Made by a program: the position numbers and the translations under genes | Notes under the pieces: model-generated | The model's database searches: none | Seen by the model: only the letters and a program-made list of their open reading frames with translations | Told to the model about the DNA's origin: nothing | Part shown: in pieces, positions 8,217-27,520 of the stretch | Layout: each line of letters starts with the position of its first letter | Position numbering within the stretch: the stretch's first letter is position 1 | Origin: a candidate division WOR-3 bacterium | GTDB lineage: Bacteria; SDB-A | DNA: 29,932 nt | Assembly: GCA_016934535.1 (NCBI GenBank) | Contig: JAFGSQ010000026.1 | Span: forward strand, 1 to 29,932 | Reading direction: 5' to 3'

Positions 8217-10166
8217 ATGAACAGAAAACTGACCGCAGTATTTTTGATTGTTTTAACTTTAATATTCGTCGCGAATCCCGTTTTATTAGCCAGAGCCGGA
8301 GGCGGTGAATCATACGGCGGCGGGGGAGGTGGCGGAGGATCTTTTGGAGGGGGTGGAGGAGACGGTGGAGGTGGCGGGGGAGAACTGATACTGTGCCTGA
8401 TATGGCTTATAATAAAATATCCCTGCATAGGTATTCCTCTGACTTTGTTTATAATCGCCGCAGCCATATTTTCTAAAATAAAGGGCACCGGAGCCGTCAC
8501 AGACAGGAATCTCAAAAGAGCCCAGAGGGCAGTCAGAAGCAGTTCGATAGATCAGAATCTCAAGCGTCTTGTATCAAAGGATCCGAATTTCTCTCTCGAA
8601 GCGCTGAAAACGAGAGTCGCGACCGCTTTTGCCGCTGTACAGAAAGCATGGAGCATACAGGATTTGACTAAAATTACACCTTTTGTCTCAGACGGCATAA
8701 ACGAGAGGTTCAGCCTTCAGATAGATATGCAGAAAGCTGAAGGATGGAGAAACGTAATGGAAAACGTGTCCGTACAGAAAGTCGAACTCGTCTCCGTTTT
8801 GTCGGACCAAAATTACGACACTCTGCATTTTGCTGTGACCGCCAAAGCAAAAGACTACAAAGTAAATCTGAAGACCGGGAAAACATTGCAGGGGTCAATG
8901 ATAAACGACAAATTTACGGAAGTCTGGACTTTCTTGAGAAAAGCCGACGTCAAAACACTCAACAGGAAAGGCGCTTTCGAGGGTAATTGCCCTAACTGCG
9001 CCGCTCCTCTCGCTATTACCGACGAGGGGAACTGTAAAGCCTGTAAAGCTTTCATCCGAAGCCCCAATTACGACTGGATACTCTCAGAGATAACTCAGGT
9101 TGAAGAATGGGAGCCGCGCTCCGCTGAAGCGGCAGTTCCGGCAAACAATATAATTTCAGAAAAAGACCCCAATTTTTCAACACAATATATAGAGGATAGG
9201 ACGTCGGTGGTGTTCTACCGTTACCAGGCGGCACTGTTTACGGGCGACGCTCTCCATCTGATGAAAGTCGCTTCTGCAACGGCTTACAAAGACCTGGCAA
9301 CCCGTATTTCCGGAAATAAAAAAGGCGACACCGTCCTTTATTATAGATTTCCTGCTGTTGGTAAGGTAGAAACTCTTTGGGTGCAATCGGAAGGCGATAT
9401 TGACAAAGTTCACGTTCTCGTTAAATGGTCGGGAAGCGGGGCTGAAAGAAATCTGGCCACCGGAACAATTAGGGTGACTGGAGCCAGGACGATAAGAACG
9501 ACAGTGTTCACTCTTTTCAGAAAAGGAGACGCTTTATCGCCGTCGGAATCCTTTGCCTCGGCGCACTGTCCTAACTGCGGAGCTCCCGAAATTAGGGATT
9601 CAAAAGAAGTCTGTCCTTACTGTGGAACGGTTCTCAATGACGGGAGCAGAACCTGGATACTCCGAGAAATGCAGGATTACCAAGCTTGGATGCAGGTCAA
9701 CAGGGAAAGATGGAACGCCGACAGAAAAAAGACCGTTTTCTCCCAGAATCCGTCAGCGGTTATTGAAGCTCTCGCGGCGATGATGTTCGCCGACGGGATC
9801 GCGGATGAACAGGAAAAGAAAAAACTTACTGAATTCGCCTCCAAATACGGCATGACTAAATCTGCGGTGGATGAACTGACCGATAGAGCCGTTTCAGGAA
9901 ATCTTGTTTGGCAGATACCGTCGGATAAAGCGAAGGCTCAGGGCTTCCTGATGGCTCTGACGGACATGTCGCTAAGCGATGGTAGAGTGAGCAGGGAAGA
10001 GTGGAAAATACTGAAAGACGTGGCTTATAAGATAGGAATCGACGAACCGAAACTAAAAAATCTTGTCAGAGAAAGACAGAAAGCATTGATAAATTTCGGT
10101 AAGAAATATTTCAAAAAACCGGGAGAAAACATTCAACCTCCTCCTCCTCCAGATATACCGAACTAA
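8217..10166 (+). CDS. Membrane protein with duplicated Tim44-like/zinc-ribbon units and TerB-like domain
   Basis: 649 residues; GAGGGGG lies 4-5 bases before the ATG. Order: signal-like helix (1-25), poly-glycine linker (28-55), one or two membrane helices (56-86), two similar units, then a TerB-like helical domain (about 510-625: ALAAMMFADGIADEQEKKKL and LMALTDMSLSDGRVSREEW). Each unit starts with KDPNF (121 and 317), continues with a Tim44-like/NTF2-type region, and ends in a CxxC pair set (C258/C261 with C273/C276; C451/C454 with C466/C469) followed by WIL (287, 480). The Gly-rich/Tim44-like pairing is known in bacterial membrane proteins. TerB-type domains bind metal in tellurite-resistance systems. 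It is 64 bases downstream of guaA, probably co-transcribed. The role is unknown; a membrane-anchored stress or metal sensor is a guess. Confidence 0.75.
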   Translation: MNRKLTAVFLIVLTLIFVANPVLLARAGGGESYGGGGGGGGSFGGGGGDGGGGGGELILCLIWLIIKYPCIGIPLTLFIIAAAIFSKIKGTGAVTDRNLKRAQRAVRSSSIDQNLKRLVSKDPNFSLEALKTRVATAFAAVQKAWSIQDLTKITPFVSDGINERFSLQIDMQKAEGWRNVMENVSVQKVELVSVLSDQNYDTLHFAVTAKAKDYKVNLKTGKTLQGSMINDKFTEVWTFLRKADVKTLNRKGAFEGNCPNCAAPLAITDEGNCKACKAFIRSPNYDWILSEITQVEEWEPRSAEAAVPANNIISEKDPNFSTQYIEDRTSVVFYRYQAALFTGDALHLMKVASATAYKDLATRISGNKKGDTVLYYRFPAVGKVETLWVQSEGDIDKVHVLVKWSGSGAERNLATGTIRVTGARTIRTTVFTLFRKGDALSPSESFASAHCPNCGAPEIRDSKEVCPYCGTVLNDGSRTWILREMQDYQAWMQVNRERWNADRKKTVFSQNPSAVIEALAAMMFADGIADEQEKKKLTEFASKYGMTKSAVDELTDRAVSGNLVWQIPSDKAKAQGFLMALTDMSLSDGRVSREEWKILKDVAYKIGIDEPKLKNLVRERQKALINFGKKYFKKPGENIQPPPPPDIPN

Positions 10167-10452: not shown

Positions 10453-10669
10453 TATTAAAGGGATAAGAACACTTGTTTGAAAGAAATCATTCTCTTTTAA
10501 TAACAAAAAAATATCATATGAAAAGAGACGCAATTTTCCATGGATTTGTTTTGACGCTTATTTCGCGCTTTGACAAGCCTTTTAAGGCGTCGAGACTGCC
10601 GGAATTTCGTACCTGACATTTTTTTGATTTCTTGGATTCGTGTTCTCCGTCCCGTACGGGAGGATTTTC
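10453..10669 (+). other. Leader region between 6S RNA and rny
   Basis: No gene is supported here. It holds TTGACA (10570-10575), immediately followed by the 12-base palindrome GCCTTTTAAGGC (10577-10588). I find no matching -10 box at the usual distance, so the rny promoter is not located. Confidence 0.35.
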
Positions 10670-12295
10670 GTGTTAATATACTTTTTGACCCAATTGGTAG
10701 GTCAGAATGGCGGGATTTCCAACATTCCCCTTGTCCTGATACTTCCGATAATAATCCTGTGTTTTTTCCTTTGCATAATCACTTTTTGGCTCGGATACGT
10801 TGTGAGTCTGAAAATTCAAAAAAGCAGGCTTGAAGACGCAAAAACTCAAGCCCGCAAGATAATAGAAGACGCGAGAAGCGAATCCGAATCCTATAAAAAG
10901 ACTGCTAAACTCGAGGTGAGTGAAGAGGCGGCAAAGACGAGAGCGGAACTCGAATCGAAAGAGCGAAAATTTCAGAGAGACATGTATCAGATAGAAAAGC
11001 GGCTCAACGACAGAACCTCTTCTCTCGACAGAAAACAGGAATCAGTAAACGGGAAAGAAAGAGAGCTGGTAAAAAAAGAGAAAGACCTCGTCGTCAAAGA
11101 AAGAGCCCTCATGCTCAAGTCCGAAAAACTCGACAACGAATTGAGAGAGATCAGCAACAGACTTCAGAAGATATCGAGGATGACGGTTCAGGAAGCCAAA
11201 AACGAACTGCTTCAAAGCCTTGAAAATCAGGTCAAAAAAGAATCGGCTCAGATGATAAAAAAGATAGTAGACAACGCCGTCAAGGAAGCGGACAAAGAGG
11301 CGGCTGAAATAGTTGTTTCGGCGATCCAAAGATGCGCGACCGACCACACTGTGGAATCGACGGTTTCAGTCGTTGCTTTGCCTTCGGAGGACATGAAAGG
11401 GAGAATAATTGGAAGAGAGGGAAGAAATATAAGGTCTTTCGAGAACCTAACCGGTGTCGAGATAATAATTGACGACACTCCCGAAGCCATAACACTGTCG
11501 GGTTTTGACCCCGTGAGAAGGGAAATCGCGAGAATAGGCATGGAAAAACTTGTCTCGGACGGCAGAATCAATCCCGGCAGAATCGAGGTCGTGATCGAAA
11601 AAGCAAAAAAAGAAATCGACGAAATAATCCAAAAAACCGCCGAAGAGACAGTGAACGAACTGGGTATATCGGCGTTTCACCCTGAGATAATGAGATATCT
11701 CGGCAGGCTGAGATACAGGACGAGTTACGGACAGAACGTATTACAGCACTCGAAAGAAGTTGCCTATTTGGCCGCTTTAATGGCAGGCGAACTTGGTCTC
11801 GACGCCGCTATAGCGAGAAGAAGCGGCCTTCTTCACGACATTGGAAAAGCGGCAGACCACACTCTGGAAGGAACGCACGCGCTCATTGGAGCCGATCTGG
11901 CAAAAAGGTACAACGAAGACATAATAGTTGTGAATGCTATCGCATCGCATCACGAGGAGGCCGAGCCGGTTTCACCGATAGCGGTTCTTGTTCAGGCGGC
12001 GGATGCCATATCAGGTTCGAGACCCGGCGCGAGAAGAGATACAATTGAAGCCTATCTTGAGAGAGTTGAAAAGTTGGAAGACATCGCCGCAGATATTGAA
12101 GGCGTCGAGAAAGTTTTCGCCCTTCAGGCCGGAAGGGAACTGAGAGTCATTGTCGAACCTTCGAAAATATCTGACGCTGAAGCCATAGTGCTGTCCGGCG
12201 AGGTAGCAGCGAGGATTGAAAAGGAGCTCAAATACCCGGGGCAGATAAAAGTCACGGTAATCAGGGAGATCAGGGCGACGGAATATGCAAAATAG
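10670..12295 (+). CDS. rny: Ribonuclease Y
   Basis: Membrane-anchored endoribonuclease that starts mRNA decay. I choose GTG 10670 (541 residues) because GGGAGG at 10658-10663 is 6 bases upstream; the in-frame GTG at 10640 lacks such a site. Order: N-terminal membrane helix (IPLVLILPIIILCFFLCIIT), a long charged coiled coil (to about residue 200), a KH RNA-binding domain (GRIIGREGRNIRSFENLTGV), and an HD phosphohydrolase domain with the metal pair in LLHDIGKAAD plus downstream SHHEE and QAADAISGSRPGARRD. This is the canonical RNase Y layout. It is the first gene of a six-gene operon and overlaps ymdB by 11 bases, as these two genes are also neighbours in Bacillus. Secure. Confidence 0.95.
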   Translation: MLIYFLTQLVGQNGGISNIPLVLILPIIILCFFLCIITFWLGYVVSLKIQKSRLEDAKTQARKIIEDARSESESYKKTAKLEVSEEAAKTRAELESKERKFQRDMYQIEKRLNDRTSSLDRKQESVNGKERELVKKEKDLVVKERALMLKSEKLDNELREISNRLQKISRMTVQEAKNELLQSLENQVKKESAQMIKKIVDNAVKEADKEAAEIVVSAIQRCATDHTVESTVSVVALPSEDMKGRIIGREGRNIRSFENLTGVEIIIDDTPEAITLSGFDPVRREIARIGMEKLVSDGRINPGRIEVVIEKAKKEIDEIIQKTAEETVNELGISAFHPEIMRYLGRLRYRTSYGQNVLQHSKEVAYLAALMAGELGLDAAIARRSGLLHDIGKAADHTLEGTHALIGADLAKRYNEDIIVVNAIASHHEEAEPVSPIAVLVQAADAISGSRPGARRDTIEAYLERVEKLEDIAADIEGVEKVFALQAGRELRVIVEPSKISDAEAIVLSGEVAARIEKELKYPGQIKVTVIREIRATEYAK

Positions 12296-13115
12296 AGTCA
12301 ACTTCGTCTTTCTGGGAGACATAATAGGAAAACCGGGAAGACAGATATGCAAAGTCTGTCTTCCTGAGATTTTTAACGAGTACTCGCCGGACGCCGTCAT
12401 AGCGAACGGAGAGAATCTGGCTTCGGGATTCGGAATATCGAGAAGGGTTTCGGAGGAGCTTTTCGAAGCCGGAGTTTCGGTTTTCACAGGAGGGAATCAT
12501 TCTCTTCACGTGGTCGGTTCGGAGGATTGGTTCGAGAAGGAGCGCAGAGTTGTCATACCCGCAAATTTCACCAAATTCATAAGAGGATCCCGCCTTGCAG
12601 AAATCGAGACGGAAAATTCCTGCATATACATCGCTTGCCTCGTAGGCAGGCTTTTCATGAATCAAAGCGACAATCCGTTTACTGTTGCCGACGCTCTTCT
12701 GGAAGAGATCGCGAGAAAAAAGAAGGTGGAAAATCCGGTTATACTAGTCGATTTTCACGCCGAAGCGACATCGGAAAAAAAGGCGCTTCTTTTCAATCTC
12801 GACGGCAAGGTCACTGCTCTCCTGGGCACGCACACTCACGTAGCGACTTCTGACGAATTTGTGTCAGAAAAAGGAACGGCTTACATAACTGATGCCGGAA
12901 TGGCGGGAGCATTCGACTCAGTGATCGGAATGAATCCCGGCGATTCACTTGAAACGATGAAAACAGGAAGAAAATTGAGGCTCAAACCGGCTTTCGGCTC
13001 GAAAAGGAGGCTCGACGGTGTTTTTGTTTCGGCTGATGCGGAAACCGGCAAGGCTTTGGAAATAAGACGCTTCACTAAATTCGCCGAGTTTCCCAGCATA
13101 AGGAACGGAGTTTGA
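12285..13115 (+). CDS. ymdB: YmdB-family metallophosphoesterase (2',3'-cyclic-nucleotide phosphodiesterase)
   Basis: 276 residues of the TIGR00282/YmdB family, calcineurin-like dimetal phosphoesterases. Bacillus YmdB acts on 2',3'-cyclic nucleotides and affects biofilm and motility choices. Metal-site motifs in order: GDIIGKPG (11-18), NGEN (41-44), GGNH (69-72), DFHAEATSEK and GTHTHVATSDE. The family-typical end region (DAGMAGAFDSVIGM) is present. The ATG is inside the end of rny, so the two are translationally coupled. The rny-ymdB pairing supports a role in RNA-turnover by-products. The enzyme class is secure; the in vivo substrate is inferred from the family. Confidence 0.92.
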   Translation: MQNRVNFVFLGDIIGKPGRQICKVCLPEIFNEYSPDAVIANGENLASGFGISRRVSEELFEAGVSVFTGGNHSLHVVGSEDWFEKERRVVIPANFTKFIRGSRLAEIETENSCIYIACLVGRLFMNQSDNPFTVADALLEEIARKKKVENPVILVDFHAEATSEKKALLFNLDGKVTALLGTHTHVATSDEFVSEKGTAYITDAGMAGAFDSVIGMNPGDSLETMKTGRKLRLKPAFGSKRRLDGVFVSADAETGKALEIRRFTKFAEFPSIRNGV

Positions 13116-13117
13116 CG

Positions 13118-13984
13118 ATGGATACAAAAATACTTCAGGGAAAACCGGTTGCAGACAGAATTTATGCTGAAATAAGCGAAACTGTCGCAAACATGGATGA
13201 AAAACCGAAACTTGTAGTCTTTTTTGTCGGCGAAGATCCCGCTTCAAAATCTTACGTTAGCTCAAAAGCCAGGGCGGCAAAAAAAACGGGTATAATCGAA
13301 ACAACTTTGACTTTACCCGAATGCACGAAGGAAAATGAGCTCGTGCACATGATTAAAAAATACGCGGAAGAGGAAAATCCCGACGGTATTCTGGTCCAAT
13401 TCCCTCTTCCCGGGCACATAGATCCTGAAAAAATTATATTGGCTGTTCCACCTGAAAAAGACGTCGACGGACTGCATCCTCAGAATCTCGGAGCACTGTT
13501 GAGAGGAACTTCCGGTCATTATTGCTGTACTCCGGCAGGAATAATAGCTTTGATGGATTATTACGGCCTCAGAGTAAAAGGAAAGAGCACTGTAGTCTTG
13601 GGCAGAAGCCTGATAGTCGGAAAACCGTTGGCCAATCTTCTTCTCGCAAAAGGCACTGATGCGACAGTCACTGTATGCCACAGCGCGACATCTGATCTGA
13701 GAGAATACACTGAAAACGCCGATTACGTCGTATCGGCAATCGGAAAAGCGAATTTTTTAAAAAAAGATATGATTAAAGAAGGCTGTTGTATCATAGACGT
13801 CGGCGTAAACAGAGTCGAATCAGATTCGTCGGCAAAAGGATATTCGATACGCGGAGACGCCGATTTTGAGAGCATGATCGGATACGCAGGCGCCATAACA
13901 CCGGTTCCGGGCGGAGTCGGCTTGATGACCGTTGCAATGCTTATGAAAAACACGGTCAATTCAGCTCTTTTCAACAGGAAATAG
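13118..13984 (+). CDS. folD: Bifunctional methylenetetrahydrofolate dehydrogenase/cyclohydrolase
   Basis: Interconverts 5,10-methylene-THF, 5,10-methenyl-THF and 10-formyl-THF, feeding purine and formyl-methionine synthesis. I use ATG 13118 (288 residues): GGAG sits 7 bases upstream, whereas an in-frame TTG at 13112 is too close to it. Landmarks: YVSSKARAAKKTGI with the catalytic Tyr and Lys, QFPLPGHID, KDVDGLHPQNLG, YCCTPAGIIALM, the NADP-binding loop LGRSLIVGKPLANLL, VDVGVNR-type IDVGVNRV, and TPVPGGVGLMTVAMLM. Length and motifs are all standard. It starts two bases after the ymdB stop. Confidence 0.96.
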   Translation: MDTKILQGKPVADRIYAEISETVANMDEKPKLVVFFVGEDPASKSYVSSKARAAKKTGIIETTLTLPECTKENELVHMIKKYAEEENPDGILVQFPLPGHIDPEKIILAVPPEKDVDGLHPQNLGALLRGTSGHYCCTPAGIIALMDYYGLRVKGKSTVVLGRSLIVGKPLANLLLAKGTDATVTVCHSATSDLREYTENADYVVSAIGKANFLKKDMIKEGCCIIDVGVNRVESDSSAKGYSIRGDADFESMIGYAGAITPVPGGVGLMTVAMLMKNTVNSALFNRK

Positions 13985-13993
13985 TCGTCCGCC

Positions 13994-15316
13994 ATGGAAA
14001 TATTTTCTGTTTCCCAGATAAACAATCTGGCGAAAAAAACGCTCGAAATGCAGTTTTCCGGTATTGCGGTGAAAGGAGAGGTTTCAAAAACCACTCTCCA
14101 CTCGAGCGGACATTTTTATCTGACATTAAAGGACGAATACGCGGCTCTTGACGCTGTAATATACAAAGGAAGTCTGAGAAGACTTTCATTGACGCCCTCT
14201 GTCGGAGAAACCTGGATATGTCAGGGAAGGCTCTCTCTCTGGGAAAAGACGGGCAGATTTATTTTTGTAATTGAGACGGCTTATCCGTCGGGCAAAGGCG
14301 ATCTTTACCTGAAATTCATACTGCTTAAGGAAAAACTGGAAAAGGAAGGTCTATTTGACTCTTCAAGAAAAAAAAGACTGCCAGAGTATCCCGAAAAAGT
14401 GGGTATCGTGACATCTCCGACAGGAGCTGTCATAAGGGATTTTGTAAACATATACAGAAGGCGTTATCCCGTCGCCGAGATCATTTTGTCGCCTTCTTCT
14501 GTTCAGGGTGAAAATGCTTCTTCCGAACTTATAAAAGCCGTGAAAAGATTGTTGAAAACCCGAGTCCAGCTCATAGTTATCGCAAGAGGCGGAGGTTCAC
14601 CGGAAGATCTCGCCGCTTTCAACGATGAAGATTTGGCTCGCGTCATAGCCGCGTCGCCGGTACCTGTAGTGTCGGCTGTCGGGCACGAAACCGACAGAAG
14701 CATTTCAGACCTTGCCGCCGATGTTGCAGCTCCCACACCGTCTGCGGCGGCAGAGCTTGTGTTTCCGGATAGAAAAGACATACTCGAGGTGATCGGCTAT
14801 TCCGAAAGAAACCTAAAAGTTAAAATGTCTGAAAAGACGAGGTATTTTAAAGTTTCGCTGTCGTCATACGCAGGTTCATATTCTTTGAATTCCGTAAAAA
14901 GCAAGATCAACGAATATTCGGCATTGCTGGGATACAGGAAAGACAACGCAGTAAAATCGATGAATTCAGTTCTGACGCGCAAAAAAAACGAACTCGAAAA
15001 CAGCCGCCGGAAAATAGACGTAAGAAGACTCAAAGAAAACTTGGCTCTGAAAGAAGAAAATCTGGGTTACAGGTACGCTGAAATTGACCGCAGAATCAAA
15101 AACCGTACGGCGAATGCAATGGAAATCCTGAATTTGGCCGAAAAAAAGATTTTTGCACTCTCTCCGTATGTTGGCCTGAAAAAAGGGTACGCAATGATTT
15201 ATGATTCAGAAGGCAATCTCGTTCCGAGCGGGGACAGAGTGAACAGAGACGAATCATACGATGTAAAATTTGTTGATAAAACCTGGCAGATGAAAGCAGA
15301 AAAGGAGAAACAATGA
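13994..15316 (+). CDS. xseA: Exodeoxyribonuclease VII large subunit
   Basis: Catalytic subunit of exonuclease VII, which degrades single-stranded DNA in both directions. 440 residues, normal length. The N-terminal OB-fold reads VSQINNLAKKTLEMQFSGIA, then VKGEVSK and SSGHFYLTLKDE. The catalytic core holds KVGIVTSPTGAVIRDF, RGGGSPEDLAAFNDEDLARV and VSAVGHETDRSISDLAADVA. A charged coiled-coil tail follows and the protein ends with a GYAMIYD segment. The small subunit xseB is not adjacent and no candidate is seen in this window. The gene starts 9 bases after the folD stop and its own stop overlaps the next start (ATGA). Confidence 0.95.
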   Translation: MEIFSVSQINNLAKKTLEMQFSGIAVKGEVSKTTLHSSGHFYLTLKDEYAALDAVIYKGSLRRLSLTPSVGETWICQGRLSLWEKTGRFIFVIETAYPSGKGDLYLKFILLKEKLEKEGLFDSSRKKRLPEYPEKVGIVTSPTGAVIRDFVNIYRRRYPVAEIILSPSSVQGENASSELIKAVKRLLKTRVQLIVIARGGGSPEDLAAFNDEDLARVIAASPVPVVSAVGHETDRSISDLAADVAAPTPSAAAELVFPDRKDILEVIGYSERNLKVKMSEKTRYFKVSLSSYAGSYSLNSVKSKINEYSALLGYRKDNAVKSMNSVLTRKKNELENSRRKIDVRRLKENLALKEENLGYRYAEIDRRIKNRTANAMEILNLAEKKIFALSPYVGLKKGYAMIYDSEGNLVPSGDRVNRDESYDVKFVDKTWQMKAEKEKQ

Positions 15317-17706
15317 TCGGCGCCTTTTTATTTTCAATTCTAGTGACGGCAAAAAGCCCGGAGATAATAGTGTCGGCCGACACTTCTTTTGGTCTGACTT
15401 TCTCCGAGGGCAGGGCTTCTTTCAAGGTTTTCGAAGACAGATACATAGACCTTGAAATTTCAATCGATCCGCCGGTGGCTTTCGTCGTTTACGACGAAGA
15501 AGGAAACATTCTGGCGAAAAGCTCGAACGGCGAAGCCGTTCTAAACACTTTTTTCAATTACTGGTTCAGCGTAAAGTTTTCAGGTGTGTCTTCGAACTCT
15601 GTTTCTGTTGATGTCAGAGCCGCAAGAGACTATAGGCAGATATCGGCCATTCCTCATACGGGCAGACTGGAGGCTGAAAAACCTTCGGAAGTTTTCACTT
15701 TCACGCCTTCTGTTTCCGGTGTTTATGAGTTCTCAGTATCTTCCGAAGACCGCGGAGGGGACCTGGACCTGAAAATATACACCGCTGACGACGAATACAT
15801 TTCAGGGAGTTTCTCTGACGGCAACGATGAAAGAGTGAGAGTCCCGATATTCGCGGGCGACGTCGTCAGAGCGATAGTCTATCTGAACGACATCTCGAAA
15901 TCAGTGAATTTTGCCGTTTATGCAGCCAGAAAAGACGACTTGCGTGAGTTACAGTCCGGCAGGACTCTGAGCGGGACAGTTGGAGAAAATTCAATGCAGA
16001 ATTTGTATCTGGTTCCTTCTACGGGATCAAGACCGGTTCTTATCTATCTGGATGCTAATTCAAACACAGATGCGGATCTCGATCTTTATGCAAGCTTCGG
16101 CGGGGAAACTTACAAATCAGTCAGTTACACTTCGAGGGAAATGATACTTCTTCCTCCTGAAGCCGGAGAAGTTCAAGTCACGGTAAAAGGTTATAATTTA
16201 AGCGGTTCTGATGTAAGATATTCGCTCATCGCCCAGGAGGTCGCTACTTTTCTCCCGCATTCCTCTCCCGTCCTGACAAAACGGATAGAACCTGACAAGC
16301 CTTACATATTTGGTGTGACGTCTGGTGAAGAGGGATTTTATTACTTTGGAGCATTGTCTGCTGAGAAGAGAGACATAGACATGATGGTTTTCGACCGTTA
16401 CGGTTCAACAGAATTGAAACTCAACACACTCAATCCTTCTGAAATCACCGCTATATGGCTCGGCAGAAGAGACACTGTGTATCTTCTGCCGATTCTTTAC
16501 GACAGGCCTTCCGAGATCGAGGTTTCGTTTGGCGCAGTTGACTTAGACACCATAGAGACCATATATTCGGGGGATCACATAAACGGCACAGTCAGACCGC
16601 CTTTCCAGGGAGTGAAGTTTTACAGTCTTCAGTTTCCAGGCTCAGGAACGGCGGCTGTTACCGTCAGAGGAGAGAGCACCAGGGACAGAGACGTGGATCT
16701 TTTCGTCAGCGGGAGGAGTTTTTACAGACGCTCGGAAGGTTCGGAAAATCCGACCGACATGGCTTCCGACGAAACCGTCCTGTTCGGTGTTGAACCAGGA
16801 GAATATTATCTTGCTCAGGTATACGCCTACGGGCGGGGAGACAGGTGCAGATACGACATCAGCACCAGATTGATAGAAGATTATAATTTGACTGCTGAAA
16901 ACTCTCCCGGCACTGTCCGGGCACTAATTATAGGAATCAGCGGTTATCCCGGGGAAGGATCTCTCAACAGAGCCACTCAGGACGCTCTCGAATTTTACGA
17001 TTTACTTGTCCTCAACGGCATTATAGCGCCTGAAAACACTGTTTTTCTTGCCGATGAAAACGCGACAAGACGGAACATTCTCGATGCCCTCGCGAAAATT
17101 TCGAGAGTATCTGTGCCAGGCGACAAATTCGTTTTTTTCTTCAGCGGCCACGGTGACAGAAAAAGATTTTCCAGGGGGACTCTCGAACAGGACGGGTACG
17201 ATGAGAGCATATGCCCATACAGCCTGACTGACGAGAACGGCGACATCTTCGACGATGAATTGAGCGCAGCTATACCTGATCATATTGAAAGCTATGTATT
17301 TTTAGACGCTTGCCATTCCGGCGGGTTCGTGTCAGATTTGACCGGGACGGGCAGACGTCTCATAATTACAGCTTCGGAAGAAGACAGGGAAGTCGGAGAA
17401 AGAGTTTTAACTCCTCTCATTCTGAGAGCTTTCAGAGGTGAAGCAGACAAAAACGGCGATTCCTGGCTGAGCGCGAAAGAAATAATTGACTTCGTCAGAG
17501 ATCGTTCAAGACGAATTTGTCCGGAGTGTCTTCATGAATTTACCGGAAGCGTGCCGAGAACATGTCCGGATTGCGGTGTCAGCCTGACGGACGAGAACAG
17601 ACCGATGAATCCCGATCTTGGAGTGAATTTCGACGAAGATACAAGACTATTTGAGCTGAAACCGGTTTACAACGAATCACAGGACGGAGAAAAGGATAAG
17701 AGATGA
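15313..17706 (+). CDS. Secreted metacaspase-like (C14) protease with PPC-like domains, EF-hand loop and zinc ribbon
   Basis: 797 residues; AGGAG lies before an ATG that overlaps the xseA stop. A weak N-terminal export signal (1-13) is followed by repeated beta domains resembling PPC domains, with FTFTPSVSGVYEFSV (128-142) and DLDLKIY or DLDLYAS segments, to about 525. The C14 caspase domain then runs from VRALIIGISGY (535). Catalytic His613 is in FFFSGHGD and Cys667 in FLDACHSGG. After the catalytic Cys comes an EF-hand-like loop, DKNGDSWLSAKE (712-723), and a four-Cys zinc ribbon, CPEC (736-739) and CPDC (751-754). Metacaspases cut after Arg/Lys and several need calcium, so the loop may matter. 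Its place between xseA and alaS is unusual. The protease class is well supported; target and localisation are inferred. Confidence 0.83.
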   Translation: MIGAFLFSILVTAKSPEIIVSADTSFGLTFSEGRASFKVFEDRYIDLEISIDPPVAFVVYDEEGNILAKSSNGEAVLNTFFNYWFSVKFSGVSSNSVSVDVRAARDYRQISAIPHTGRLEAEKPSEVFTFTPSVSGVYEFSVSSEDRGGDLDLKIYTADDEYISGSFSDGNDERVRVPIFAGDVVRAIVYLNDISKSVNFAVYAARKDDLRELQSGRTLSGTVGENSMQNLYLVPSTGSRPVLIYLDANSNTDADLDLYASFGGETYKSVSYTSREMILLPPEAGEVQVTVKGYNLSGSDVRYSLIAQEVATFLPHSSPVLTKRIEPDKPYIFGVTSGEEGFYYFGALSAEKRDIDMMVFDRYGSTELKLNTLNPSEITAIWLGRRDTVYLLPILYDRPSEIEVSFGAVDLDTIETIYSGDHINGTVRPPFQGVKFYSLQFPGSGTAAVTVRGESTRDRDVDLFVSGRSFYRRSEGSENPTDMASDETVLFGVEPGEYYLAQVYAYGRGDRCRYDISTRLIEDYNLTAENSPGTVRALIIGISGYPGEGSLNRATQDALEFYDLLVLNGIIAPENTVFLADENATRRNILDALAKISRVSVPGDKFVFFFSGHGDRKRFSRGTLEQDGYDESICPYSLTDENGDIFDDELSAAIPDHIESYVFLDACHSGGFVSDLTGTGRRLIITASEEDREVGERVLTPLILRAFRGEADKNGDSWLSAKEIIDFVRDRSRRICPECLHEFTGSVPRTCPDCGVSLTDENRPMNPDLGVNFDEDTRLFELKPVYNESQDGEKDKR

Positions 17707-19487
17707 ACATTGAAGATCTGAGAAAAGCTTACATAGAATACTTTAAACTTCACGGTCACGCCCACGTTGCGGGCGGGTCGCTTATACCCGAAAACGATCC
17801 GACGGTGCTTTTCACGACTGCAGGAATGCATCCTCTGGTTCCTTATCTGATGGGTGAAAAACATCCTTCAGGCAAAAAACTCTGTAATTGGCAGAAATGC
17901 ATTAGAACCGGAGATATTGACGAAGTGGGTGACACTCAGCATCTGACATTTTTTGAAATGCTCGGCAATTGGTCCCTCGGAGATTATTTTAAAGAAGAAG
18001 CTGTCCGGATGAGTTGGGAATTTCTCACTTCGAAAAACTGGCTGGGTCTCAACCCCGAAAGACTATTTTTTACAGTTTTTGAAGGCGACGAAGTGTCTCC
18101 GCGCGACGATGAAACAGCAGAGATTTGGAAAAAAAGCGGAGTAAAAAAAGAACGCATTTTATTCCTGCCCAAAAAAGACAACTGGTGGGGTCCCGCCGGA
18201 AAGACAGGGCCTTGCGGTCCGGACACTGAGATGTTTTACGACACTCTTATGCCGCGATGTTCTGAAAAGTGCGCACCAGGCTGTCCTTGCGGAAAATACG
18301 TTGAAATCTGGAACGACGTGTTCATGCAGTATAATAAAGTCAGCGAAGACAGATACGAACAGCTCAAAGTGAAAAACGTAGACACGGGAATGGGTCTCGA
18401 AAGGACAGCGGCTGTGTTAAACGGGTTTTCGACAGTTTACGAAACAGAAAAATATTCGTCTATCCTAAACGAACTCGAAAAAGCGAGCGGAAGAAAATAT
18501 GAGCACAGCGACACAGACACAAAAGCTATGAGGATCATCGCCGATCACATGAGATCTGCTTTCTTCATAATAGGAGACGACCTGGGTGTGAAACCGTCAA
18601 ACCTCGATCAGGGGTACATCGTACGGAGGCTGATCAGGAGGGCGATGAGGTATGCGATTGCGATAGGCATAGAAAAAAGTCTCGGCGATACCCTCGCCGA
18701 AAAAATAATTGAGACTAACCCGGTGTACGACGAACTCGAAAAAAGAAAAGAATTTATTGTCGAAGCTATCGTCGAAGAAGAGCAGAGATTCAGGCATTGT
18801 CTCAGCAAAGGCATGACTGAGTTTTCGAGAATAATCCCCAACATCGAAAAGAGCGAAAAGAAGACGATCCCCGGAAGGATAGCTTTTAAGCTTTATGACA
18901 CTTACGGTTTTCCGCTCGAGATGACGGAGGAACTGGCGGGTGAAAAAGGGCTTAAAGTCGATGTCGATGGATTTCGAGAAGCTTTTAAGAAACATCAGGA
19001 GCTTTCGAGGACTGGAAGCGAAGTCAGGTTCAAAGGAGGGCTTGCCGACGCCAGCGAACAGACAAAGAAGCTTCACACGGCGACTCATTTACTGCACGAA
19101 GCGCTGAGGAGAATTTTGGGAGATCATGTCGCACAGAAAGGATCGAACATAACTCCCGAGAGATTGAGGTTCGATTTCTCGCACCCAAAACCGATGACGG
19201 AAGAGGAGATAAAAGAAGTCGAAAGACTCGTAAACAAAGCCATTGGCGAAGATCATCCCGTCATAGAAGAATTGATGAGCGTTGAAGAAGCGAAAGCCAA
19301 GGGAGCCGTCGCACTTTTTACAGATAAATATTCGGAAAAAGTCAAAGTTTACACTATAGGGGGATTTTCGAAAGAAGTTTGCGGAGGTCCTCACGTCGGG
19401 AAGACGAGCGAACTCGGCAAATTCAAGATACTCAAAGAGCAGTCTTCTTCTTCGGGAGTGAGGAGGATCAAAGCCATTCTTGAATGA
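17703..19487 (+). CDS. alaS: Alanyl-tRNA synthetase, short form
   Basis: Charges tRNA-Ala. 594 residues against about 870 for common bacterial AlaRS. The class II catalytic domain (FTTAGMHPLVPYLMG, KTGPCGPDTEMF, EIWNDVFMQYNK, MGLGLERT-type MGLERTAAVLNG) and the tRNA-recognition domain are present. A Cys-rich insert (CSEKCAPGCPCG) sits before EIWNDVF and may bind zinc. The protein then passes almost directly into the editing domain (HTATHLLHEAL; CGGPHVG, with Pro where CGGTH is usual) and ends. The beta-barrel linker and the C-terminal coiled-coil/DHHA1 domain are absent. No continuation in other frames follows the stop, so this is a natural short form like those in candidate phyla. Its ATG overlaps the previous stop (ATGA); last gene of the operon. 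Confidence 0.93.
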   Translation: MNIEDLRKAYIEYFKLHGHAHVAGGSLIPENDPTVLFTTAGMHPLVPYLMGEKHPSGKKLCNWQKCIRTGDIDEVGDTQHLTFFEMLGNWSLGDYFKEEAVRMSWEFLTSKNWLGLNPERLFFTVFEGDEVSPRDDETAEIWKKSGVKKERILFLPKKDNWWGPAGKTGPCGPDTEMFYDTLMPRCSEKCAPGCPCGKYVEIWNDVFMQYNKVSEDRYEQLKVKNVDTGMGLERTAAVLNGFSTVYETEKYSSILNELEKASGRKYEHSDTDTKAMRIIADHMRSAFFIIGDDLGVKPSNLDQGYIVRRLIRRAMRYAIAIGIEKSLGDTLAEKIIETNPVYDELEKRKEFIVEAIVEEEQRFRHCLSKGMTEFSRIIPNIEKSEKKTIPGRIAFKLYDTYGFPLEMTEELAGEKGLKVDVDGFREAFKKHQELSRTGSEVRFKGGLADASEQTKKLHTATHLLHEALRRILGDHVAQKGSNITPERLRFDFSHPKPMTEEEIKEVERLVNKAIGEDHPVIEELMSVEEAKAKGAVALFTDKYSEKVKVYTIGGFSKEVCGGPHVGKTSELGKFKILKEQSSSSGVRRIKAILE

Positions 19488-20507: not shown

Positions 20508-21626
20508 TCATCGGAACTTTTTCAGTGCGCCGGAAGCGACAAGCGTATTACCTGCCATAATTTTATATATATAAATTCCCGACGGAAGGTCTCTGCCTGA
20601 AAAATCTTCACCTGACCAAGTTACTGAGTAACTGCCTGCCTCGAAATTACCTCTCAAAAGATTTAAAATTTTTCTGCCGGAAATATCCGAGACATAAACT
20701 TCTATCCATTCGCTTTTCGAGGTTTTGAAAGATATATCTACGCGGGAGGTGAAAGGATTCGGGCGCGCGTTAAATTCGCTGATGAAAGACGGGATTTCGA
20801 TACTTTCTTCGACTCCTGTTGTCCAACCGGCAAGAACGGCAAACATATACCAGACCGCCATTCCCTTGTGAAGGCAGTTTTCGTAAGCGGTGTGTGAGCC
20901 GTTGTAATCGCCGTAATAAGCAGGGTGTTCGGCTGGTATGTATTGACCGTTGTGATAATAGGTGTGCTGTTCCCACTGGTCGGTGGTGTCGTTATACCAC
21001 CAACAGTCCATGTCGGCGAAGTCGAAAAGTATCTTGCCGTTGTTCAGGCAATATTGTCTTATCTGGTTGTTTCTCTGATGCCTTATATAGCCGTCATCTC
21101 CGGTCGCCTGGGCGTTTCCTGTCATATAAATGAAAATGACGTTCGAATACTGCTGGTCGAGTCTGTTGACGGAGTCGAGATAGGTCTGTACGGAATCGGA
21201 CGTGTAATGATCGCACTGACAGCACCAGGCCCAGGCGGAATAATTCAGATTTGAATTGGCGTTGAGAACAGCTCTCGTCTCGTTCATTCCGTCTGTCGTC
21301 TGCCAGTACATTTCCGGAGTCACGTAATCGTCATATCTCTGACCGTCGTGTATGCAGAAAGAACCGGGGGAATTCGGCAATTCACACCAGCCGATGTCCA
21401 CACCGAATGCGGAATTAATTATCTCGAGTTCTTCCAATCCTGTGGTCAGCTGGCTTCCGTGTGAAGTGTGCGCGTAGTGCCATTTAAAGTTGGTTTTTAC
21501 GTAGGTAACCCATTGAGAAGGAATGTTGTCAACTCTCATACAGGTGTGGTCTATAACGATCTGAGTGAATGCGTTGTGAAACAAAAAGAAGAGGACTGCC
21601 GAAAAAACAGAAAGTTTTGTTTTCAT
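20508..21626 (-). CDS. Secreted protein with FlgD-like C-terminal sorting domain
   Basis: 372 residues from the ATG at 21626, chosen because GGAGG lies 4-5 bases upstream and a signal peptide follows directly (MKTKLSVFSAVLFFLFHNAF). The ~270-residue mature domain has landmarks HYAHTSHGSQLTTGLEELE, SAWAWCCQCDHYT, VIFIYMTGNAQATGDDGY, NNQIRQYCLNNGKILFDFAD and HKGMAVWYMFAVLAGW. I have seen this family in secreted proteins of environmental bacteria but know no firm function; an SGNH-hydrolase-like fold is possible. The last ~85 residues (NARPNPFTSRVDISF to DLPSGIYIYKIMAGN) are a FlgD-Ig/type IX-like sorting domain, which attaches or exports proteins at the outer surface. It is the only clearly intact gene between 19.5 and 22.0 kb. 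Confidence 0.75.
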   Translation of the reverse strand: MKTKLSVFSAVLFFLFHNAFTQIVIDHTCMRVDNIPSQWVTYVKTNFKWHYAHTSHGSQLTTGLEELEIINSAFGVDIGWCELPNSPGSFCIHDGQRYDDYVTPEMYWQTTDGMNETRAVLNANSNLNYSAWAWCCQCDHYTSDSVQTYLDSVNRLDQQYSNVIFIYMTGNAQATGDDGYIRHQRNNQIRQYCLNNGKILFDFADMDCWWYNDTTDQWEQHTYYHNGQYIPAEHPAYYGDYNGSHTAYENCLHKGMAVWYMFAVLAGWTTGVEESIEIPSFISEFNARPNPFTSRVDISFKTSKSEWIEVYVSDISGRKILNLLRGNFEAGSYSVTWSGEDFSGRDLPSGIYIYKIMAGNTLVASGALKKFR

Positions 21627-21696
21627 TTTTCCTCCTTTGTAATTTCCTGCTCTCATATTATGAGCGGGTTTTTAAAACCAATCAGATCCCGATCCA

Positions 21697-22018: not shown

Positions 22019-25000
22019 ATGAATAGCGTTTCCCCCGAAAAAAGCATTTTGTCTTCTGTACCCGATTTTATTTTGGACAGATATAAAACAGGAAAATATT
22101 CCGGAAGCTTTGAAGGAGCAGTATTTTACGCAGATATAAGTGATTTCACTAAAATAACTGAAACACTTATGAAAAGAGGGAAGAAAGGCGCCGAGGAATT
22201 GAGTTCCATTCTCAACAGATTTTTCGGACCTTTAATCAACGGAATATATTCCGTAAAAGGATTTGTCTCTTGTCTTGAAGGAGATTCTATCATAGCCGTT
22301 TTCCCTTCTTTATACTGTGAAAAAGCTAAAGTTGCCGACACCGTGATTAATGCCTACAATAAATTTTCCAAAATCAAACCGCAGGGTCTTAAAAAAGTAA
22401 GCCGAGGTATTTTCGTCAAAGCTGGATTCTCCTATGGGAAGATTGACTGGCAGATTGTGCATAAGCATTCTCAATATGCTTATTTTTTCATGGGTGAAGC
22501 CGTGTCAGGAGCCATATCAGCCGGAAGCAATTTCCGTGAAAATGAAATCCGCTTCGACAAAGGCGGAAAAGATGATTTGTCATTAGGGAAAGCGGACTTT
22601 GTCAGTTGCAGGTATAAAAAGAACTTGCATGACTCTGCATTACCGGTAGTAGAAGATAACAACAGGCAAGACGACGTTTTGAGAGAGATGTTCTTGTCTC
22701 ACATGTTACGAGGTAGAGTATTTAAAAATGAATTCAGAGACGTCATAACTTGTTTCATTTCTCCGCATAAGGGAGTGGAAATTTCGGAATTTGTAGGCAC
22801 GGTGTCGAGACTTTCGGAAAAGTACAGTTGTTACGCGAGATTCAGTTACGGCGATAAAGGTGTTGTTTCCGTTACGGTCTTCGGCGCTCCGGTTAGAATG
22901 GAGGATTCATTTGAAAGAGCGTGCGGCTTTGCGTCCGAATTGTCGAAGACAGGTCTCTATAAAATCGGTTTGACGTACGGATCGGCTTTTGCAGGTATTA
23001 TAGGAAATAATACGAGAGCCGAATACGTTGTTCTCGGAGAGAAGGTCAATCTGGCTGCCCGGTTGATGTCGCATGCTAAAGCGCGAGAGATCTTCATAGA
23101 TTTCGATTTATCAGATGCAGCAAAAGAAAGTTATAGTTTTAATTACCGCGGAGAAGAGTTTTTCAAAGGCTTTCACGATCCTTGCAAGTATTATGTTTTA
23201 AAAAAGAAAAAGTACGAGAAAAAAACAGAAAGAATCGAGCTGACGGGAATGAAAAAAGAGGTTTTAAAACTTACGGACGAACTGAAAAAATTTTCACACG
23301 AAAAAAATTTTCGAGTAATCAGTATTTTCGGCGACGCGGGCGCTGGAAAAACCGTTTTAATAAAAAAGTCACTCGAAAAAGCTGGAGTCGAAGATGCGGT
23401 TTTCATATCGCCTGAATTTTCTAATTTCGAAGATTTCGGCGTTGTATCGAAATTTTACGAATCAATTTTTATCGGCAAAACAGAAAACAAAAAGTTCGGA
23501 AAAAAACTGTTTAATAAAAAATTCTCAGATTATGTTCAAATTACAACAAAAAACCCGGACAAATCCACAGCTTCGGAGCGGCAAGATGAACTGTCAAGGG
23601 CAAAACCTTTAATATCATATTTTGTTTCATCCCCTGACAATAAATCTTTCATCGAAAAACTGAATTACAAAACCATGCGCGAAGAAACAATCAGGGCAAC
23701 GGCGGCCGTTTTAAAGTCTTTTTGCCTGCATAAACCTTCGGTTTTAGTAATAGATGACGCTCATAACCTGGACGAACAGTCAAAAGAAGTGTTTTCAGAA
23801 GCCTTGGAAAAAGCCGGTAATCTGTCTCTTTGTCTGATTTTATGTTCGAGGTACGCAGGAGACGGATCCAGAAAAATGATTTTTAAAACCTTAAAGGGCA
23901 AAAGGACTCTGATAGATGTGAAAAGACTTACTCCGGCAGAGATTTCTGACTTGGCCGAAAAATTTTTTAGTTTAAAACTTTCGAAGCAATTTTCCTCATA
24001 CCTTTTCAATACTACACGCGGAAATCCTTATTTTCTGGCTACTTACTGCGATTTTCTCAAAAAAAGCGGTCTTTTCGAGACCAGGGACAATAAAGCTTAT
24101 CTGAAAAAAGAAACGCAGAATCTTCCAGGCAGTATAAAAGACGTCATTATCGCTAAAATTGACAGGCTGGAAAACGATGCCAAGGATATTCTTTTTTCTT
24201 GCTCGGTGTTCAGAAAAAGAATTGAAGTGTCAATACTCTCCGATATTCATAAAGTCAGGCGAAACCGCATTTATGGGCTTTTAGAAGAGTTGACCGAGAA
24301 AGGATTTCTTTTCGCTAAAGGCCGAAAAGAAGTAGGATTCCAGAGTGATATAGTTTCCAAAGCAGTCTACGGAATGATGCTCGAATCCGAAATTGCTCGC
24401 CGGCACTCCGCTGCGGCAAGATGCATTCAAGATAAATACGGAGAAAAAAAGAACTATTTTGAAGAGATTGCCTATCATTTGGACAAAGCGAATGATTTAA
24501 GAAATTCCGCTGAATATTTCGTAAAAGCGGCGCGTTACGACAAAGAAAGATTATTTTACAAAAGAGCCGTTGAACTGTATTCAAAAGCGAAAACGAATCT
24601 GAGCAGGCAGAAAGATCCCATAAAAACAGTTATGATAAATCTGGAATTGTCGGAGATTCATTCGAAAGCCGGAGAGATTTTGTTGTCGAAAAAGAATCTC
24701 TTGGAGAACATTAAGATCTGTAAAAAAGTTACCGAAAAAGAAAAAAAAGCGTCCTTGGACAGAAAAACAGCTGAAGATTTGCTTTTCAAAACGTATTATT
24801 CACTCGGGGATGATTACATCGTCCAAGGAAAATACGTCAAGGCAATTGAGACTGCAAAACTTTCTTTGAAAATCGCTAAAAAACCATATTACAGACAAAA
24901 TAAGCACAAATCCTACAATCTTCTCGGCAGGATCTTCTACTACAAAAATAATTACGCAAAAGCGCTGTATTATTACAAGAAAAGCATAGGGTCAATGATA

Positions 25001-25984
25001 AGTTCCGGCAGTTCAGGTGATGACCCGAGAATTTTTATGAATATAGCCAACGTTTATTCTGAAACAGGGGATTACGACAAAGCTATTAGTTACTACAGGA
25101 AAAGCCAGAGGATTTCAGAAAAGCAGGGCGACAGGATTACAGTTTCTAACATCAAATTCAACACCGCTTACCTGTATTATGAGAAAAAAAATTATAAAAA
25201 ATCTCTCAGATATTTTAACGAATGTCTTGCGTTTTGCAGGAAATTCAAACTGCATTCGATTTTAGCTAAAACCTCTCTGAATATCGGGTTGCTGTATATG
25301 GATTTGCGCGATTTCAGAAAATCAAGAAGATGCTTTTCGGAAAGCCTTAAGCTCAACAGAAAAATTGACGACCCACTCGAAACATCGAGAGTCTTGAACA
25401 ATATAGGATCATTGCTGATTGAAAAGCAGGATTATAAATCTGCGGAAAAATATTTCAAGGAAGCTCTTGATATAAAAGACAGGATAGGAGACGAAAAAGG
25501 CAAAGGTATATTGCTTGGAAATCTTGGGAAAATGCATACTCAAATGAAAAATTACAAAGAAGCCGAAAAGTATCTATCGGAGTCTGCCGAAATTTTCAGG
25601 AAATTGGGAGTAAAATTTCTTTTAGCGACGGTGCTCGTATACAAACTGGAGTTGCATTCATTACGTGGAGACCGAACATTCCCTGAAAAAACAGTTGCTG
25701 AAGCCATGTCGCTCGCCCGCAGGTTGAAAAATGAATCGCTCAAAAAGAAAATTGAAAATTTTTCAGTAATCTTCAATGAGATAGTGCGAAGAGCCCGTGA
25801 CCCTGAAGACTTCTTTGTGAGAGGTCTCTCCGAGGAGCATTTTTGCCGCCGCCGCCTCTCGCAGGGATCTCATTCCGTTTTTCTTTGCCTCGGACCTGAT
25901 AAGATTGAGGCTTTCTCCAATAACTATGAACTTCCGTATTTCAGGAGTGATTTTGAGAATTTCGAAAATACCTGTTCTGTATAA
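22019..25984 (+). CDS. Soluble-adenylyl-cyclase-like protein: two class III cyclase domains, STAND NTPase, TPRs
   Basis: 1321 residues with the order of human soluble adenylyl cyclase. C1 (about 32-200) keeps both metal-binding aspartates, Asp39 (FYADISDFT) and Asp89 (LEGDSIIAVF), but not the transition-state residues. C2 (240-395) has lost the metal residues but keeps Asn344 and Arg348 (GEKVNLAARL). One catalytic site is thus possible. The usual substrate-selecting Lys, four residues before the second Asp, is Cys85, so specificity for ATP is uncertain. An NTPase follows with Walker A GDAGAGKT (438-445) and Walker B VLVIDD (575-580), then many TPRs from about 800 to 1240. The 3' 222 bases lie antisense to the PilB/GspE gene; the final ~65 residues look unlike TPR and may be a read-through extension. 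The start lacks a ribosome binding site. Confidence 0.86.
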   Translation: MNSVSPEKSILSSVPDFILDRYKTGKYSGSFEGAVFYADISDFTKITETLMKRGKKGAEELSSILNRFFGPLINGIYSVKGFVSCLEGDSIIAVFPSLYCEKAKVADTVINAYNKFSKIKPQGLKKVSRGIFVKAGFSYGKIDWQIVHKHSQYAYFFMGEAVSGAISAGSNFRENEIRFDKGGKDDLSLGKADFVSCRYKKNLHDSALPVVEDNNRQDDVLREMFLSHMLRGRVFKNEFRDVITCFISPHKGVEISEFVGTVSRLSEKYSCYARFSYGDKGVVSVTVFGAPVRMEDSFERACGFASELSKTGLYKIGLTYGSAFAGIIGNNTRAEYVVLGEKVNLAARLMSHAKAREIFIDFDLSDAAKESYSFNYRGEEFFKGFHDPCKYYVLKKKKYEKKTERIELTGMKKEVLKLTDELKKFSHEKNFRVISIFGDAGAGKTVLIKKSLEKAGVEDAVFISPEFSNFEDFGVVSKFYESIFIGKTENKKFGKKLFNKKFSDYVQITTKNPDKSTASERQDELSRAKPLISYFVSSPDNKSFIEKLNYKTMREETIRATAAVLKSFCLHKPSVLVIDDAHNLDEQSKEVFSEALEKAGNLSLCLILCSRYAGDGSRKMIFKTLKGKRTLIDVKRLTPAEISDLAEKFFSLKLSKQFSSYLFNTTRGNPYFLATYCDFLKKSGLFETRDNKAYLKKETQNLPGSIKDVIIAKIDRLENDAKDILFSCSVFRKRIEVSILSDIHKVRRNRIYGLLEELTEKGFLFAKGRKEVGFQSDIVSKAVYGMMLESEIARRHSAAARCIQDKYGEKKNYFEEIAYHLDKANDLRNSAEYFVKAARYDKERLFYKRAVELYSKAKTNLSRQKDPIKTVMINLELSEIHSKAGEILLSKKNLLENIKICKKVTEKEKKASLDRKTAEDLLFKTYYSLGDDYIVQGKYVKAIETAKLSLKIAKKPYYRQNKHKSYNLLGRIFYYKNNYAKALYYYKKSIGSMISSGSSGDDPRIFMNIANVYSETGDYDKAISYYRKSQRISEKQGDRITVSNIKFNTAYLYYEKKNYKKSLRYFNECLAFCRKFKLHSILAKTSLNIGLLYMDLRDFRKSRRCFSESLKLNRKIDDPLETSRVLNNIGSLLIEKQDYKSAEKYFKEALDIKDRIGDEKGKGILLGNLGKMHTQMKNYKEAEKYLSESAEIFRKLGVKFLLATVLVYKLELHSLRGDRTFPEKTVAEAMSLARRLKNESLKKKIENFSVIFNEIVRRARDPEDFFVRGLSEEHFCRRRLSQGSHSVFLCLGPDKIEAFSNNYELPYFRSDFENFENTCSV

Positions 25985-27520
25985 AAAACCGGTTCCCCTG
26001 CACTGAACACAGCCTTTTCCGATTTTGACGCCTGCCGTGGAGAGTTGGTTCTTTTCGATTTCCAGCGCTTCAACCGCATCCGGGGGAAGATTAAAACTTT
26101 CAGAGCAGAACTGGCAGTTTTTTCTTATAAGCCTTTGCGCTATTACACCAATGAGAGTGCTCGACAAAAGGAATTTCGGAACACCGAGGTTGACCATTCT
26201 CGAAATTGCCGAAGGGGCGTCAATCGTGTGGAGAGTAGAAAACACGAGATGGCCGGTTAAAGCCGCCTGAATTGCGTATTCAGCGGTTTCTTTGTCCCTT
26301 ATTTCTCCGACCATAATTATGTCAGGGTCCTGCCTGAGAACGTTGCGAAGGGCATTGGCGAAGCTTATTCCGGATTTGTTGTCTATAGGTATCTGATTGA
26401 AATCTTCGTAGACGAGTTCGACGGGATCTTCTATGGTCACAATGTTGACTTCCGGTTTTGAAAGCTCTCTTAGAAGAGAATAGAGGCTTGTTGTTTTTCC
26501 GCTTCCTGTCGGTCCTGTAAGCAAGATTATCCCTTCGTTGTGCCCCAGGAATTCCCTGACGAGCGACATGTCGTCGTCGAAAAATCCCAGATCTCCTATG
26601 TTCTGCAGAAGTACGTCGGGGTCGAATATTCTCATAACTACTTTTTCTCCGAATACTGTCGGGACCGTGGAAATTCTTATTTCCAGTTCGTTGTCTTTGT
26701 ATTTCTTTTTAATTCTTCCGTCCTGAGGTATTCTCTTTTGGGAAATGTCGAGTCCGGAAAGAATTTTGACTCTCGACACGATGGCGGAGTGTACAATGTT
26801 CGGTATTACGTGAACGTCGTGAAGAACACCGTCAATTCTCATTCTGACTAAAGAGAGGTTTCTTTTCGGTTCGATGTGAATGTCCGAAGCTCTTTGTTCA
26901 AATGCGTAGGAGAACAGATTGTCTACTGCCGTGACGACGGGTTTTATGTCGGGTTGGACTTCGATGTCAGTCTGACTCAGGTATTCTTTGTTGAAAATAT
27001 TTTTGGACTCGAGGGTGCCCGAACGCAGAAGAGTTTCAGCGGCTTTTAAAGCCGAGTGGAAGGAAAAAAATCCCTCAATAATTTTTTCGACGTCGGAAGG
27101 CTTGGCCATAACAAAATTCAATTTAATGTGAAGTTGATTTTCGAGGTCGTCTCTGAGCTTCAAAACCGAGGGCTCGCAGAAAGCAACAGTCAGGCTGTCT
27201 CCTTCGCGCGATAGAGGCACTATTTTGTTGTGTTTGGAAAATTTCTGAGGAATGGCTCCTGTAACTATTTCCAGGTCGAGTGTGAGGGGGTCGATGTGTA
27301 TGAAAGGAGCGCCAAGTAATTCGGCTAAATTTTCATAAACTACGTCTTCGGAGATTGCTTTGGTGGAGACGAGCGAGGTAAGAACATCCTGACCCGATAT
27401 TTTGGAATGTCTTTCCATTTTTTCAAGATATTCCTTCTTTATGATTTTTTTTGACTGGAGAAGTTCGATCAGTTTTTCGGTTATCTGAGTTTCGGTCAGT
27501 GATAGAATATCTTCATTCAT
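25763..27520 (-). CDS. PilB/GspE-family assembly ATPase
   Basis: 585 residues, cytoplasmic hexameric ATPase that powers type IV pilus extension or type II secretion. The N-terminal T2SSE_N-type domain spans about 40-150 (VSTKAISEDVVYENLAELLG). The core has Walker A GPTGSGKT (336-343), the Asp box VTIEDPVE (361-368), Walker B IIMVGEIRD (401-409) with Glu406, and the His box LVFSTLHTIDA. The Cys pairs C469/C472 and C504/C507 bind zinc in this family. Which of PilB or GspE it is cannot be told without pilus or secretin genes, and none lies in this window. Its ATG overlaps the panB stop (ATGA). The family-typical end (GMRSLREAAAAKML, EVFRVTG) is complete, so the stop at 25763 is genuine. Confidence 0.92.
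   Translation of the reverse strand: MNEDILSLTETQITEKLIELLQSKKIIKKEYLEKMERHSKISGQDVLTSLVSTKAISEDVVYENLAELLGAPFIHIDPLTLDLEIVTGAIPQKFSKHNKIVPLSREGDSLTVAFCEPSVLKLRDDLENQLHIKLNFVMAKPSDVEKIIEGFFSFHSALKAAETLLRSGTLESKNIFNKEYLSQTDIEVQPDIKPVVTAVDNLFSYAFEQRASDIHIEPKRNLSLVRMRIDGVLHDVHVIPNIVHSAIVSRVKILSGLDISQKRIPQDGRIKKKYKDNELEIRISTVPTVFGEKVVMRIFDPDVLLQNIGDLGFFDDDMSLVREFLGHNEGIILLTGPTGSGKTTSLYSLLRELSKPEVNIVTIEDPVELVYEDFNQIPIDNKSGISFANALRNVLRQDPDIIMVGEIRDKETAEYAIQAALTGHLVFSTLHTIDAPSAISRMVNLGVPKFLLSSTLIGVIAQRLIRKNCQFCSESFNLPPDAVEALEIEKNQLSTAGVKIGKGCVQCRGTGFLYRTGIFEILKITPEIRKFIVIGESLNLIRSEAKKNGMRSLREAAAAKMLLGETSHKEVFRVTGSSHYLIEDY

Follow-up and report, generated by a model that had tools for sequence, protein, structure and literature searches.

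A zinc-ribbon orthocaspase whose gene is vertically inherited and belongs to the core in two bacterial phyla

The caspase-like (Peptidase_C14) gene located between xseA and alaS in the genome of a candidate division WOR-3 bacterium belongs to the core gene set of two little-studied bacterial phyla, in which it is vertically inherited as a single copy, and the encoded protein, judging from its sequence, is a member of a distinct family of orthocaspases (bacterial metacaspases). Caspase homologs in prokaryotes are mostly treated as patchy accessory genes tied to cell death, and an earlier note on this locus regarded metacaspases as normally accessory, a generalization that fails for the zinc-ribbon orthocaspase family, which belongs to the core in both phyla. 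A single-copy core gene of this kind, evolving like its housekeeping neighbors, is suggestive of a day-to-day role other than cell death in at least one caspase lineage, and the zinc-ribbon orthocaspase is a defined protein with which such a function can be tested. The stretch analyzed here (the window) comprises 29,932 nucleotides of contig JAFGSQ010000026.1.

Domain architecture and conserved residues

The C14 gene was found to be intact in the open-reading-frame check of the window, and the protein matches Peptidase_C14 with a score of 49.6 bits compared to the curated cut-off of 21.4 (Table 1). Sequence matches of the C14 domain in the PDB include metacaspases 4, Mca2 and Yca1 as well as GSU0716. 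An AlphaFold2 model of residues 521-797, derived from two sequences, is weak (mean pLDDT 56, pTM 0.55); a Foldseek search with this low-confidence model retrieved only metacaspases or GSU0716 among the top 25 matches, with E-values down to 4.5e-8. The protein looks like a functional metacaspase with a caspase fold, an EF loop and a zinc ribbon.

Table 1. Features of the C14 gene and its immediate neighborhood in the window
Feature	Coordinates	Strand	Evidence
C14 metacaspase (orthocaspase) gene, 797 aa	15313..17706	+	ORF; Pfam PF00656, 5.5e-13; orthologs
Hydrophobic N-terminus, signal-peptide- or anchor-like, without basic n-region	15313..15351	+	hydropathy
N-terminal beta region; PPC-like DxD(L) motifs recur around residues 150, 253, 354 and 460	15385..16872	+	PPC in 17/22 members
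Caspase/C14 domain, residues 536-705	16918..17427	+	Pfam; PDB sequence matches; Foldseek
Catalytic His613 (SGHG)	17149..17151	+	34/34 orthologs
Asp647-Asp648, equivalent to Asp189-Asp190 of the TbMCA2 Ca site	17251..17256	+	alignment to 4afr; invariant
Catalytic Cys667 (DACHSGG)	17311..17313	+	34/34 orthologs
EF-hand-type loop D712-E723, flanked by two predicted helices of p10	17446..17481	+	D712 and E723 invariant; 34/34; helix-loop-helix in model
Zinc ribbon CPEC-x11-CPDC, residues 736-754	17518..17574	+	four Cys in 34/34; Pfam zinc-ribbon families in members
rny, ymdB and folD, located further upstream in the same gene run	10640..13984	+	Pfam; order kept as far as relatives' sequence reaches
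xseA, upstream neighbor, 4-nt overlap	13994..15316	+	Pfam Exonuc_VII_L
alaS, downstream neighbor, 4-nt overlap	17703..19487	+	Pfam tRNA-synt_2c

The caspase His-Cys dyad, the EF-hand-like loop and the terminal zinc ribbon that had been noticed in the window protein are all present, and the respective positions, including Cys 736/739/751/754, are retained in each of the 34 full-length orthologs, with the identity between the orthologs from the two phyla being about 29%. In the low-confidence model, the EF-type loop (D712-KNGDSWLSAK-E723) connects two p10 helices. Across 22 family members, Pfam detects the C14 domain in all 22, PPC in 17, and any single zinc-ribbon model in at most 10. The description of the N-terminal part as PPC-like beta domains is borne out for most of the family, but the window protein itself falls just below the PPC cut-off (4.6e-5); the family alignment contains near-invariant Asp pairs in this region (D150/D152, D253/D255, D354/D356 and D460/D462).

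In TbMCA2, the S1 pocket includes D95, S156 and D211, and the calcium site includes D173, D189, D190 and D220 (PMC4357240). By alignment to this structure (4afr), the equivalent S1 residues of the window protein are D557, S611 and D665, which are invariant across the family alignment, and the calcium-site equivalents are D630, D647, D648 and D675, all four of which are Asp in the window protein; in the members from the second phylum, D630 is replaced, mostly by Asn, with the other three remaining invariant.

Gene order, distribution and descent

The 4-nucleotide ATGA overlaps at both ends of the C14 gene, with xseA stopping at 15316 and alaS beginning at 17703, and the order rny-ymdB-folD-xseA-C14-alaS are as claimed previously, according to the ORFs and Pfam matches. 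The overlaps make co-transcription likely, but not the certainty implied by the statement that the gene must be co-expressed with its neighbors. A scan for internal promoters and terminators yielded 17 promoter-like matches compared to 8.9 in shuffled sequence; these matches are scattered and hence uninformative on internal promoters. An upstream start codon with a basic n-region (ATG in two congeners, CTG in the window) was considered and rejected, and the downstream ATG was retained as the C14 start because it is preceded by a good Shine-Dalgarno-like AAAAGGAG.

The C14 gene is present in all four genomes, from two genera, that constitute our sample of the window's GTDB phylum (the locus in JAFGIG010000004.1 is one of the four), and the order xseA-C14-alaS is conserved in each. 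The C14/alaS overlap is found in all four genomes, with TTG as the alaS start in G003, and the xseA/C14 ATGA overlap is visible in the three congeners. Genes guaA, tim44-like, rny, ymdB and folD are also located upstream in G002 and G003, the compared stretch of G001 starting within xseA. Three genes 3' of alaS are gone from the locus in the second genus but C14 is kept, indicating that its retention reflects more than general synteny. In the window's genome, the Pfam profile search detected a single Peptidase_C14 match, namely, the C14 gene itself.

Outside this phylum, full-length matches were found in one other phylum only, first in a sample of 145 relatives and again in a sample of 386. 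Within this second phylum, a match was detected in 39 of the 42 genomes, a few of the matches being fragmentary, and in all 24 good genomes (completeness ≥90%, contamination ≤5%). The in-frame stops in many of these matches turned out to be the natural C-terminal stop, with the match running past the frame end. In all 30 second-phylum loci, C14 is directly followed by pheS, that is, it precedes pheS-pheT, and neither xseA nor alaS was found within its flanks; upstream, many of the loci with a long enough flank contain a xerC-like gene along with one that is unassigned. In the window's own genome, pheS-pheT is preceded not by C14 but by a proS-like gene (identified from the N-terminus alone). 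Given the pheS-pheT context in the second phylum as opposed to the xseA/alaS context in the first, the gene has moved at least once between the two phyla, and its link to rny and xseA is lineage-specific and tells little of its function.

In the tree of C14 domains, the two phyla form two reciprocally monophyletic clades that are joined at 92/89. The pN/pS of C14 is similar to those of xseA, guaA and folD and higher than those of rny and alaS, although these ratios are rough because dS is mostly saturated. No relatives were found in viral contigs. The fact that the window protein matches the generic 'caspase' model of PADLOC (6e-18) speaks for an anti-phage or toxin-type caspase effector, but the match is restricted to the protease domain, no partner sensor gene is adjacent, and the gene is a single-copy, vertically inherited core gene in a housekeeping operon, which makes such a function extremely unlikely.

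The earlier note considered a programmed-death or stress-proteolysis role tied to RNA turnover. In a broader form, this reading holds that the protease is coupled to nucleic acid and translation genes within a stress or death program triggered along with RNA turnover or tRNA charging, consistent with the fully conserved placement of C14 in both phyla, each time upstream of a synthetase gene, albeit a different one. There is also a precedent in metacaspases encoded in translation-linked operons, for example, with trmE in Xanthomonas (PMC3501461), such that operon placement alone is not new. However, C14 of the second phylum is not adjacent to rny, ymdB or xseA, and probable export of the protein would place it in a compartment other than that of RNA turnover. 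Furthermore, upon inspection of ORFs, no synthetase gene was seen next to the four nearest other C14 relatives examined, and the independent placements number only two. Because the second phylum keeps the ortholog at another place, we reject coupling to RNA turnover as the main reading and consider it unlikely. The synthetase gene directly 3' of C14 in both phyla (alaS in one, pheS in the other) is suggestive and might reflect more than coincidence, although there are just two events. One could imagine that selection ties the expression of an exported core caspase to the synthetase genes (alaS or pheST), so that the state of translation would set the dose of a surface protease, a scenario that we view as quite improbable.

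Several other features of the window were observed. AlaS is short (594 aa; 17703-19487), with Pfam matches to the catalytic and tRNA_SAD parts and without a C-terminal DHHA1-type match. Adjoining guaA, a gene at 8217-10166 encodes a single protein in which a Tim44-like domain is combined with a zinc ribbon and a TerB domain; this gene is tandemly duplicated in G003. The small cNMP-binding protein encoded at 28353-28826 is much better conserved than its neighbors, with an identity of 97% among congeners and 85% to the other genus. Finally, a cyclase-AAA-TPR gene (22019-25984) and a T2SSE/PilB-type ATPase gene (25763-27520) overlap convergently by about 220 bases.

Export and probable function

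A Sec signal peptide consists of a basic n-region, an h-region and a cleavage site. The characterization of the protein as secreted-type relies on a hydrophobic N-terminal stretch of about 12 residues, which is present in all 22 members examined (in the window protein, the Kyte-Doolittle maximum is 2.35 over 12 residues, starting from residue 1), but the usual basic n-region is missing, with K or R ahead of the stretch in 1 member and absent in the other 21. The hydrophobic N-terminus together with the PPC domains makes export plausible, and only plausible given that the putative signal lacks the basic n-region.

The explanation that we favor, and consider moderately probable, is that the C14 gene encodes a constitutively expressed, exported, calcium-dependent Arg/Lys-specific housekeeping protease acting on envelope or secreted proteins. 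Under this scenario, the protein would leave the cytoplasm via its hydrophobic N-terminus, bind Ca2+ both at the p20 site and through the EF loop, and hold Zn2+ in the ribbon that would serve as a rigid C-terminal brace; cleavage after Arg or Lys in envelope or secreted proteins would contribute to their maturation or quality control. The position in core operons, rny-ymdB-folD-xseA-C14-alaS or before pheS-pheT, would then ensure that C14 is steadily expressed along with growth genes, and would not reflect a shared pathway of RNA or DNA turnover. We infer the housekeeping processing role from the distribution of the family only.

Family-bearing genomes contain 19-88 Por_Secre_tail matches each (53 in the window's genome), and all 11 tested for the gingipain family C25 (G000-G003, G105, G145, G149, G150, G171, G183 and G185) contain 9-20 matches per genome. 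With many C25 proteases and type-9-type tails in the same genomes, envelope protein processing appears to be a reasonable setting for the C14 protein. Near the C14 gene, the protein encoded at 20508-21656 has a FlgD_ig/Por_Secre_tail C-terminus. These tails, including the one nearby, would also fit a substitute or partner of a PorU-type sortase that trims cargo C-termini in type 9-like secretion. However, the abundance of proteases of the gingipain/PorU family leaves no gap to fill, and in G003, the Por_Secre_tail neighbor is gone from the locus whereas C14 is kept; we therefore reject this possibility as improbable and retain the housekeeping protease as the preferred explanation.

Comparison with known systems

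A search of open-licence papers found nothing relevant on the zinc-ribbon C14 architecture or on a metacaspase encoded beside alaS, and no account of a core, two-phylum zinc-ribbon family. Type I metacaspases are defined by a Pro-rich, zinc-finger N-terminal prodomain, and an EF-hand motif is on record in 7 archaeal proteins (PMC6426788). The window protein shares the dyad, the S1 acids, the calcium-site acids and the fold class with type I metacaspases of the C14B group (TbMCA2, Yca1 and the Candida glabrata metacaspase). Unlike these, it has no Pro-rich prodomain; the N-terminus is beta/PPC-like, and the EF loop and the zinc ribbon are located in the C-terminal part, within p10 or following it.

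With bacterial and archaeal orthocaspases that possess accessory domains or EF-hand motifs, the family shares the C14 domain and the EF-type loop after the catalytic Cys; in our scan of sampled C14 ORFs, EF-type loops occupy the equivalent place in other bacterial C14 proteins, but the zinc ribbon was found in none of the scanned C14 ORFs from outside the family. Other orthocaspases, as far as sampled, are not known as phylum core genes, whereas this family is core in two phyla. GSU0716 of Geobacter (3bij), with a solved structure, has the same bacterial C14 fold but, at 285 aa, is too short to include the N-terminal beta region.

The C25 gingipain/PorU proteases are exported and, in the known members, specific for Arg or Lys. 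They have the clan CD fold in common with the C14 protein, in which Pfam detects no match to Peptidase_C25, but represent a different family and, in family-bearing genomes, are encoded by separate, multicopy genes.
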